DNA from: Alphaproteobacteria bacterium MarineAlpha9_Bin3
GTDB taxonomy: Bacteria > Pseudomonadota > Alphaproteobacteria > TMED109
Length of the DNA: 41,475 nt
Direction: 5' to 3'
Assembly: GCA_002937655.1 (NCBI GenBank)
Contig: PTKH01000012.1
Coordinates: forward strand, 1 to 41,475
This document shows, piece after piece, positions 30,855-32,237 of this stretch (position 1 is its first letter; the number at the start of each line of letters is the position of its first letter). Below the pieces are notes generated by a model, which was not told the DNA's origin, did no database searches, and worked only from the letters and a program-made list of their open reading frames with translations. A program made the position numbers and the translations under genes.

Positions 30855-31697
30855 ATGGAAAATTTAAATTTAAAAAAAATTAAAAAAGATTATTTAAATG
30901 ATGGAGTAACCATTATAAGAAATTTCATAGATTTGCATTGGATTAAAGAAATGCAAATTGCTATAGATCATATTTTATCTTTTCCAGGAAAAGCGTCAAT
31001 AGAATATACACCTCAAGAAAATACAGGTAGATATTATGGAGATTTTTTTATATGGAGAAGAAATAAATCATTTAAAAAATTTGCATTTGACTCTAATCTA
31101 CCAGAACTCGCTAGTAAAATATTAGATAGTAAAAATATTAATTTTTTTTATGACCAATTATTAGTAAAAGAACCTAAAACTAAAGAATCTACTCCATGGC
31201 ACCATGACTTACCATATTGGCCTATTAAAGGTAATCATATAATTTCTTTTTGGGTTGGATTTGATAGGGTTAGTAAAAACACTGGCGCAGTAGAATATAT
31301 AAAAGGTTCACATAAGTGGAATAAGTTTTTTGCACCAGCTTCATTTGGGAAAGATACGAGGTTTGAAAATAGTTATAAAAAAATGGGATTAGAGGTTATG
31401 CCAGATATTAATTCTAACCTTGGAGATTATGAATTACTATCATGGGATTTAAATCCTGGTGATATTATAATTCACCACCCATTAGTAATTCATGGCTCCT
31501 TAGGAAATTTCTCTTCAAAAACTAGAAGAAGAGGTTTAGCTTTAAGATATATAGGAGATGATGTTACCTGGGATGATCGTCCTGGCACATTTATTAAAAA
31601 TAAAAATGTTAAAAGTATTTTACCTCCTTTAAATTATAAAAATGGAGAAGCTTTAACAGGAGATTTATTCCCATTAATATGGCCTAATAAATACTGA
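30855..31697 (+). CDS. Phytanoyl-CoA dioxygenase (PhyH) family protein
   Basis: A 280-residue Fe(II)/2-oxoglutarate-dependent oxygenase. The start LNDGVTIIRNFIDLHWI, the iron motif HHDLPYW (HxD, about residue 115) and the distal His in IIIHHPLVIHGSLGN with the following Arg in KTRRRGLALRY (2-oxoglutarate binding) are all seen. PhyH members act on phytanoyl-CoA, ectoine, D-amino-acid-like or small metabolites; substrate is unknown here. No Shine-Dalgarno, but the 12-mer -10 element at 30838 precedes it. Followed by a 240-base gap holding a palindrome and hairpin. Confidence 0.88.
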   Translation: MENLNLKKIKKDYLNDGVTIIRNFIDLHWIKEMQIAIDHILSFPGKASIEYTPQENTGRYYGDFFIWRRNKSFKKFAFDSNLPELASKILDSKNINFFYDQLLVKEPKTKESTPWHHDLPYWPIKGNHIISFWVGFDRVSKNTGAVEYIKGSHKWNKFFAPASFGKDTRFENSYKKMGLEVMPDINSNLGDYELLSWDLNPGDIIIHHPLVIHGSLGNFSSKTRRRGLALRYIGDDVTWDDRPGTFIKNKNVKSILPPLNYKNGEALTGDLFPLIWPNKY

Positions 31698-31699
31698 GT

Positions 31700-31813
31700 A
31701 TAAAAAATTTTATAAATTTAAACGTTCTAGAATACTTACTTGAAGGCATAAGCATTCTAGAACTTCACACAAAAGAGGAGGTAATAATGGCTGTTATTAA
31801 TTCCTCTATTATT
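31700..31813 (-). ncRNA. Candidate small RNA under a Fur-like operator
   Basis: Predicted, not recognised from a known family. On the minus strand TTGACA (31846-31841) and TATATT (31825-31820), 15 bases apart, form a promoter with an 11+11 bp palindrome just upstream. A transcript starting near 31813 would run about 110 nt through an anti-Shine-Dalgarno stretch, ACCTCCTCTTTT (minus sense of 31771-31782), then the strong hairpin at 31724-31763, and end in a U-rich run (six T at 31707-31702). No protein of note is encoded on that strand. The plus strand of the same DNA holds a 15-codon ORF, so the two readings compete. Ends are approximate. Confidence 0.35.
31724..31763. repeat. Inverted repeat, strong hairpin
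   Basis: GTTCTAGAAT (31724-31733) and ATTCTAGAAC (31754-31763) are perfect reverse complements. Inside, after one mismatch, CTTA and TAAG add 4 bp, leaving a 10-base loop (CTTGAAGGCA). Each arm also contains TTCTAGAA, itself a palindrome. On the plus strand it lies 11 bases before a ribosome binding site; on the minus strand it precedes a U-rich stretch. Confidence 0.75.
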
Positions 31814-31834
31814 AATAGAAATATAGAAAAATAG
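31787..31834 (+). CDS. Very short ORF (15 codons) with perfect ribosome binding site
   Basis: ATG 31787 is preceded by AGAGGAGG (31774-31781), five bases away, one of the best ribosome binding sites in the window. The peptide would be MAVINSSIINRNIEK. Downstream CCTCT (31803-31807) can pair with AGAGG, so the mRNA could hide its own ribosome binding site. It may be a leader peptide, a small protein or chance; nothing follows on the plus strand for the next 570 bases except on the opposite strand. Confidence 0.35.
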   Translation: MAVINSSIINRNIEK

Positions 31835-31868
31835 ATACTATGTCAATGAGAATGAGTCTCATTCTCAT
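31820..31868 (-). promoter_or_regulatory. Minus-strand promoter with Fur-like palindromic operator
   Basis: ATGAGAATGAG (31846-31856), one T, then CTCATTCTCAT (31858-31868): an 11+11 bp perfect inverted repeat. It can be read as hexamers of the (G/A)AT(A/G)A(T/G) type, as in Fur-family boxes. The last base of the palindrome is shared with a minus-strand TTGACA -35 hexamer (31846-31841), and TATATT follows 15 bases later (31825-31820). A bound repressor would block this promoter. The metal (iron, manganese, zinc) is not determinable. Confidence 0.6.
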
Positions 31869-31937
31869 CTATAAATAATATAGGAATAACTAATAATTAA
31901 ATATTAAAAAAAATCCATCTAAATATATTATATAATT

Positions 31938-32237
31938 TTAAGTTTCAAAAATTATTTTTCCAGATGCAGGATCAGTTAATCCCAATTCAGGACTTATTTC
32001 TTCTAAAATTGATCTAAATTTATCTAAAAAAGCAATTAATGCCGGCCTAGATTCGACTAAAGAGTTTTCATTTTCCCATATTATTGTTGAAAAATATTTT
32101 CCTTCACCACAATCAATAAGTTGAAAAGATAAAGCACCTTTATAATCTATTAAATTGAAATCTTCATGTAATTTTAGCATCTCTTCATGATGATCCTTTT
32201 TTACTTTAAATCTTACATTACTCACATATTTTGTCAT
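31938..32237 (-). CDS. ABM-like dimeric alpha-beta barrel protein
   Basis: A 99-residue protein beginning MTKYVSNVRFKVKKDHHEEM, then an amphipathic helix and YFSTIIWENENSLVESRPALIAFLDKF, compatible with the antibiotic biosynthesis monooxygenase/ferredoxin-like fold. The assignment rests on pattern, not on a diagnostic residue, so function is open: monooxygenase, haem-degrading or structural. AAGGA precedes the ATG. Convergent with the PhyH gene, divergent from the DUF4149 gene. The 174-base region at 32238-32411 holds only AT-rich sequence with a weak AAGATT...AATCTT inverted repeat. Confidence 0.6.
   Translation of the reverse strand: MTKYVSNVRFKVKKDHHEEMLKLHEDFNLIDYKGALSFQLIDCGEGKYFSTIIWENENSLVESRPALIAFLDKFRSILEEISPELGLTDPASGKIIFET

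Follow-up and report, generated by a model that had tools for sequence, protein, structure and literature searches.

Does the 240-bp gap between two converging genes of Alphaproteobacteria bacterium MarineAlpha9_Bin3 encode an iron-controlled small RNA, and on which messenger would such an RNA act? The window, that is the whole stretch of 41,475 nucleotides analysed here, is contig C4 of genome G000, which belongs to an uncultured marine-type alphaproteobacterium (1.62 Mb, 96% complete, G+C about 29%), and the gap lies between a PhyH-family gene and a small gene. A first reading made from the letters only (the sequence-only reading) had placed in the gap a Fur-controlled small RNA of about 110 nt on the minus strand. 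This claim is supported by the joint conservation of operator, TTGACA box and RNA in three related genomes (G001, G003 and G007) and by an iron regulon. The locus, which from operator to end spans about 31,868–31,705 on the minus strand, is real and conserved and has an unusually strong predicted target. We consider it likely that it is the gene of a Fur-repressed, base-pairing small RNA that acts on the mRNA of an iron-sulphur (Fe-S) subunit and thereby spares iron.

Operator, promoter and the predicted RNA

The perfect palindrome and the TTGACA box with which it shares one base were found as the sequence-only reading had described them, and so was the TATATT box 15 bases further on (Table 1). 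Within 3 mismatches the operator occurs at a single site in the window (0.03 expected), while its fuller pattern TGAGAATGANNNTCATTCTCA, within the tolerance used, gave six sites genome-wide versus none in the reversed control. Operator sites were detected in 22 of the 28 genomes of the family and the control gave none in any of them. The genes behind these sites code for bacterioferritin-associated ferredoxin together with bacterioferritin, pseudoazurin, Ni-superoxide dismutase and porin-like proteins, and for a SBP_bac_6/8-type ABC binding protein that resembles iron-type ABC systems and whose substrate is presumed. The genome encodes two Fur-family proteins, of which one (L032 1486-1893) aligns end to end with the Fur of Magnetospirillum (best PDB match 4ray, E 1.9e-44) and the other looks like Zur, its best fit. 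Since the sites precede iron genes and a Fur of the Magnetospirillum type is encoded, the operator is best read as an iron-Fur box, in line with the Fur-family likeness proposed earlier for the palindrome. A putative Fur site that overlaps a promoter, an iron-gene regulon and a Fur gene are thus all present, as in the Fur-controlled class of small RNA genes.

Conservation was analysed in G001 and G003, which belong to the genus of the window genome, and in G007 from a sister genus; the gap matches these three genomes at 79-86% identity. All three keep the arrangement in which operator and TTGACA are followed by 32-33 variable bases and then by hairpin 1, the linker and hairpin 2; the operator is conserved upstream of the RNA in G003 and G007 and cut by the contig end in G001. 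The stretch from TTGACA to the first stem measures 32-33 nt in all four genomes and is conserved in length and not in sequence, as expected for a promoter spacer. The counterparts of the -10 box in the relatives are TATATC, TATCTT and TATATT at a spacing of 15-17 nt. A promoter scan that allowed spacings of 16-18 nt did not report the TTGACA/TATATT promoter of the window because its spacing is 15 nt. Operator, promoter boxes and hairpin, for which the sequence-only reading had proposed a search in related genomes, therefore all recur.

The predicted RNA comprises two hairpins and has a whole length of about 100-110 nt. Its 98-nt core folds with -33.9 kcal/mol versus -13.8 kcal/mol for shuffled sequences (z -7.4), and no shuffle equals it. 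Covariance folding, which had also been proposed, gave a model that recovers the RNA in G000, G001, G003 and G007 with no further members among the 28 family genomes. Alignment of the four sequences showed that 98% of the pairs are kept and that three pairs, all in hairpin 2, have compensatory changes (none in slid controls); covariation from four sequences is taken as support rather than proof. When 84,980 species genomes were scanned for the DNA pattern, nine matches were returned, and the Fur box and the fold accompany the pattern only in G003, G007 and G001; the matches in Yersinia, Bacteroidia, Olleya, Cylindrospermum, Fonsibacter and TMED198 carry neither and were rejected as chance. In a check of synteny, the single true PhyH orthologue in the sister genomes (G009) had no RNA near it.

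A strong hairpin followed by a U-rich run had been claimed for the end of the transcript. The hairpin is real and a terminator scan reported one site versus 0.1 expected, while the tail GTTTAAATTT behind it is moderately U-rich at most and a T6 run (31707-31702) begins 16 bases on. The CCUCCUC motif is also present, and is kept in G001 and G007 while G003 has UCCUC; 14 nt of the hairpin 1 region, AACAGCCAUUAUUA, are invariant in the four genomes. To judge from the alignment, the conserved element is the first hairpin and not the anti-Shine-Dalgarno motif alone, and this hairpin appears to match one specific mRNA start.

Table 1. Positions of the predicted features of the RNA locus and of the genes bordering the gap
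Feature	Positions	Strand	Remarks
Fur-type operator, perfect 11+1+11 palindrome ATGAGAATGAGTCTCATTCTCAT = ATGAGAATGAG-T-CTCATTCTCAT	31846..31868		palindrome seen in the sequence; binding predicted
-35 box TTGACA	31841..31846	-	one base in common with the operator; in all four genomes
Probable -10 box TATATT	31820..31825	-	15-nt spacing from TTGACA; weakest promoter element, putative
Predicted small RNA, core of 98 nt	31715..31812	-	start ~31812; end ~31715 (31702 with termination at the T6 run)
Hairpin 1 AGAGGAAUUAAUAACAGCCAUUAUUACCUCCUCU, loop CAGCCA, predicted target-pairing region	31774..31807	-	12 pairs; 100% paired cells in four genomes
CCUCCUC, complement of a Shine-Dalgarno sequence	31775..31781	-	inside the 3' arm of hairpin 1
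Linker UUUGUGUGAA	31764..31773	-	its UGUGUGAA complements UUCACACA of the predicted target
Hairpin 2, terminator-like, GUUCUAGAAUGCUUA...UAAGUAUUCUAGAAC, loop UGCCUUCAAG	31724..31763	-	15-16 bp; compensatory pairs
Reading frame MAVINSSIINRNIEK with Shine-Dalgarno-like GAGGAGG	31787..31834	+	judged a mirror image of the target-pairing region, not a gene
PhyH-family gene	30855-31697	+	border of the gap
Small gene	31938-32237	-	border of the gap

The Ni-superoxide dismutase gene (L028 1501-2087 in G000:C11, and L076) has a Fur box ahead of it in G000 and G003, possibly a metal switch under iron limitation, and the gene of a pseudoazurin-like copper protein (L075, L078) has one in G003 and G001, possibly a switch from an iron to a copper electron carrier.

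The predicted target messenger

The invariant AACAGCCAUUAUUACCUC of the RNA complements GAGGUAAUAAUGGCUGUU, the sequence of a ribosome-binding site and its AUG-GCU start. Targets were ranked on translation starts sampled from about 25% of the genome and by genome-wide pattern searches. The pattern GAGG-N2..10-ATGGCTGT, which combines the Shine-Dalgarno (SD) sequence with AUGGCUGU, found, apart from the RNA gene, the start of the same Fe-S gene in G000, G001, G003 and G007, with almost no matches in the reversed control. The encoded protein carries Fer2 and Fer2_2 domains and is followed by a 790-amino-acid molybdopterin subunit; the predicted target codes for the small, [2Fe-2S] subunit of a molybdenum hydroxylase of the periplasmic type. 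The match runs past the bases searched for, in that the linker complements a segment upstream of the target SD that is outside the search pattern (Table 1).

The duplex of the 5' part of the RNA with the Fe-S start has an energy of -39.6 kcal/mol versus a mean of -13.7 kcal/mol (standard deviation 4.3) for 458 starts, among which the next best were soxZ (-24.9 kcal/mol) and a 4Fe-4S ferredoxin (-24.5 kcal/mol); 2000 shuffles of the RNA reached -31.0 kcal/mol at best. When the costs of opening both partners were counted, the net cofold energies of the cognate pairs were -19.1 (G000), -19.6 (G001), -22.3 (G003) and -16.3 kcal/mol (G007), with a background of -2.05 kcal/mol (standard deviation 1.48, best -7.5) for 395 other starts. 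A predicted complementarity to the start site of an iron protein, the Fe-S subunit, is thus kept in four genomes. The RNA of G003 lacks the CC of CCUCCUC by a 2-nt deletion, and its linker and hairpin are thereby in register with the target.

Two other lines of search were abandoned: a first target screen with 3 mismatches barely exceeded its control and gave conserved matches inside genes such as coxB, and a MAITKNN start in G007, initially promising, proved to be a weaker match. It was also observed that contigs of the four genomes end within copies of the gene for the Fe-S subunit (G000:C11:26877-26915, G001:C66:1-216, G003:C5:74487-74678 and G007:C31:3-305), which suggests near-identical duplicate copies of the molybdenum hydroxylase operon in each genome.

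Several points weigh against a Fur-repressed RNA directed at the Fe-S subunit. The -10 box is poor and the U-tract behind hairpin 2 is weak. Hairpin 1 shows one wobble and no compensatory change. The RNA was found in four genomes only; the genus of the window genome has four further members (61-73% complete) in which it was not found. At least two of these, G004 and G006 (61-70% complete), carry the identical target start, and their RNA gene may be missing from the assembly or absent. The background starts were drawn from about a quarter of the genome, and in G000 the target gene runs into a contig end. The target start also resembles the start of the same gene in outgroups, so that the pairing draws in part on sequence that predates the RNA.

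Sister RNAs and competing explanations

Two more RNA candidates of the genome (in contigs C23 and C67) have the same promoter, a Fur box fused to TTGACA. The C23 candidate (L009 2280-2440 (+), G000:C23; L015 (-); L020) lies ahead of a peroxiredoxin gene and ends in CTAGAATGTTTATTTTGAGTACCTCCATTGTAAGCATTCTAG-T9. Its terminator stem is common to the window RNA and occurs among the 28 genomes at these two loci only, and its loop AGUACCUCC is invariant. In the G002 version a GAGGAGG near the 5' end could pair with the RNA's own loop, so that the RNA may alternatively act as a leader or attenuator. Beside the C23 RNA a divergent gene of 409 amino acids (L009 2146-2225 (-), with equivalents in L015 and L020) has a conserved 5'-leader motif, GAGAGAGGTACATA, that complements the loop bases GUACCUC; this leader is possibly a target of the C23 RNA or a site of self-regulation.

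The C67 RNA (L010 2008-2212 (-), G000:C67; also L017, L019, L021, L022 and L023) lies opposite an 87-amino-acid gene and is conserved in six genomes, more widely than the window RNA. It forms two hairpins, with CCUCCC and GAGUACCUCC in the loops, eight of its pairs are changed on both sides, and no shuffle equals it. It is cuckoo-like in its predicted form, has no Rfam match and is apparently undescribed. The three RNAs look like one family with exchanged modules. Proteins with iron motifs were weakly enriched among the best partners of the window RNA (p 0.04-0.07, n=10) and more strongly among those of the sister loop (p 0.002), which is suggestive only.

The loops of the sister RNAs, with ACCUCC or CCUCCC, bear on an alternative in which the RNA is Fur-controlled and has a generic task: its ACCUCC would titrate or block many SD sequences in the manner of the cuckoo RNAs, and the Fe-S match would be one of many. 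The presence of CCUCCUC in the window RNA and the high rank of the ferredoxin start would fit this as well. However, CCUCCUC is placed in a stem and is shorter in G003 while the entire AACAGCCAUUAUUA is invariant, and the Fe-S start beats every other sampled start by 15 kcal/mol. We regard a generic task as unlikely.

A function of the plus strand is more improbable still. The frame opposite hairpin 1 could encode a short leader peptide, or it could be the decayed remnant of a copied Fe-S gene start (MAVINSS versus MAVLNIN); the minus-strand features would then be by-products and the palindrome would serve another promoter. Indeed, the frame with its GAGGAGG-TAATA-ATG-GCT and the Fe-S gene start are alike over some 30 nt, and the plus strand folds too (z -5.5). 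Yet the minus-strand fold is stronger, the SD of the frame is weaker in G003, no plus-strand promoter is suitably placed upstream, and the Fur-TTGACA promoter faces the minus strand in every copy. In place of the frame the relatives have MAVINSSTREDINKD..., which runs off the contig without a stop, MAVINSSTL with a stop after it and MAVTNSS, also with a stop after it; the stops differ in every one of the four genomes. Conservation of the codons ends at codon 7, with no synonymous and one nonsynonymous change in those seven codons, and this single change keeps the RNA pair (A-U to G-U). The pattern expected of a small coding gene, with frame and codons conserved in the four genomes, was thus not found, and the constraint appears to act on the minus-strand RNA and not on the frame. 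A conservation limited to the plus-strand frame had been named in advance as an outcome that would speak against the RNA; it is the RNA that proved to be conserved.

Finally, the features could be due to chance, the palindrome being a stray occurrence in AT-rich DNA and the hairpin a bidirectional terminator that serves the PhyH gene. The weak U-tract and the position between converging genes, where hairpins are common, would fit this reading, but it is hardly credible given the conservation across two genera, the operator statistics, the match to the target and a promoter that two other RNA genes share.

Relation to known RNAs, proposed mechanism and meaning

By analogy, the locus is best read as representing a new family of iron-sparing small RNAs under Fur repression, which would work like RyhB, FsrA and IsrR. 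RyhB, PrrF and NrrF have a Fur operator in the promoter, are made at low iron and target the start sites of iron-protein mRNAs. The window RNA shares the operator and, as predicted, the target logic, but no Hfq was found in its genus and it has no Rfam match, while RyhB and PrrF are Hfq-dependent (PMC9410917). A search of the window against Rfam gave no family at the gathering score, RyhB included, and the matches at relaxed thresholds were weak and unrelated.

Hfq (PF17209) had no match in the seven genomes of the window genus or in G007, while known controls matched, so that the partner of an Hfq-dependent RNA was not detected in the organism; matches were found in 10 of the 28 family genomes, namely every one of the seven from the large-genome genus g7 and three others. 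Hfq thus appears to have been lost during genome reduction, although a very diverged Hfq may be present in the window genus. The long duplex of RNA and target may replace the chaperone.

In its logic the window RNA is closest to IsrR of Staphylococcus aureus, which is Fur-repressed, has C-rich stretches and lowers the translation of iron enzymes independently of Hfq (PMC9410917). The sequences are unrelated, and in the window RNA, unlike IsrR, a stem holds the C-rich stretch and a single long specific match predominates. FsrA of Bacillus subtilis is likewise Fur-controlled and binds SD sequences by a C-rich motif, with the partner proteins FbpA/B/C being required (PMC9410917); it is alike in Fur control and C-rich anti-SD motif and differs in sequence and lineage. 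RusT of Caulobacter crescentus (118 nt) is also an alphaproteobacterial RNA of iron starvation and of similar size, but is controlled by NtrYX with no Fur site found in its promoter, needs Hfq and targets outer-membrane transporters (PMC11005374). The cuckoo RNAs SmelA075 and SmelA099 carry CCUCCUCCC in their hairpin loops (PMC3927594). The sequence-only reading had drawn an analogy to them from CCTCCTC; the motif is shared, but in the window RNA it occurs once, in a stem, and is incompletely conserved, and CCUCCUCCC was not found in its loops, so that it is not a cuckoo RNA.

We infer transcription, Fur binding, repression, translational block and the iron-sparing role from the sequence, as follows. 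With ample iron, Fur with Fe2+ would sit on the palindrome and cover the -35 box, and the gene would be off. When iron is scarce Fur would be released and an RNA of about 100-110 nt would be made. Hairpin 1 (3' arm UUAUUACCUCCUCU) and the linker would form a duplex of more than 25 nt with the start of the target mRNA: the hairpin would open and cover the SD, the AUG and the first codons, while the linker would zip up the upstream region. Initiation would thus be blocked, the four-iron protein would not be translated and iron would be spared. Weaker partners such as the 4Fe-4S ferredoxin start may be secondary targets.

A bolder proposal, to which we would give somewhat less than an even chance, is that the RNA gene arose as an antisense copy of its own target's translation start beside a Fur promoter, and that with its sisters it forms a Fur-driven, Hfq-free network in which modules were swapped, namely a terminator stem and an ACCUCC loop that are each shared. 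If hairpin 2 is taken out, the plus-strand sequence is TTTAAACGTTC|ACACAAAAGAGGAGGTAATAATGGCTGTTATTAAT versus ATTAACGTTCACACAGTGGAGGTAATATGGCTGTATTGAAT in the target; bases beyond hairpin 2 therefore match as well, and the duplex would be a three-way junction, as was predicted for G001.

Iron limits growth across much of the ocean, and to our knowledge iron sparing by small RNAs has been described mostly in cultured gamma- and betaproteobacteria and in cultured Gram-positive bacteria. If the proposed function is true, RNA-based iron sparing would persist after genome reduction, in a marine alphaproteobacterial genus with small genomes and no detectable Hfq, and the molybdenum hydroxylase would be the enzyme given up first. 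In ocean metatranscriptomes the RNA would be expected to rise at low iron, with the hydroxylase protein going down.
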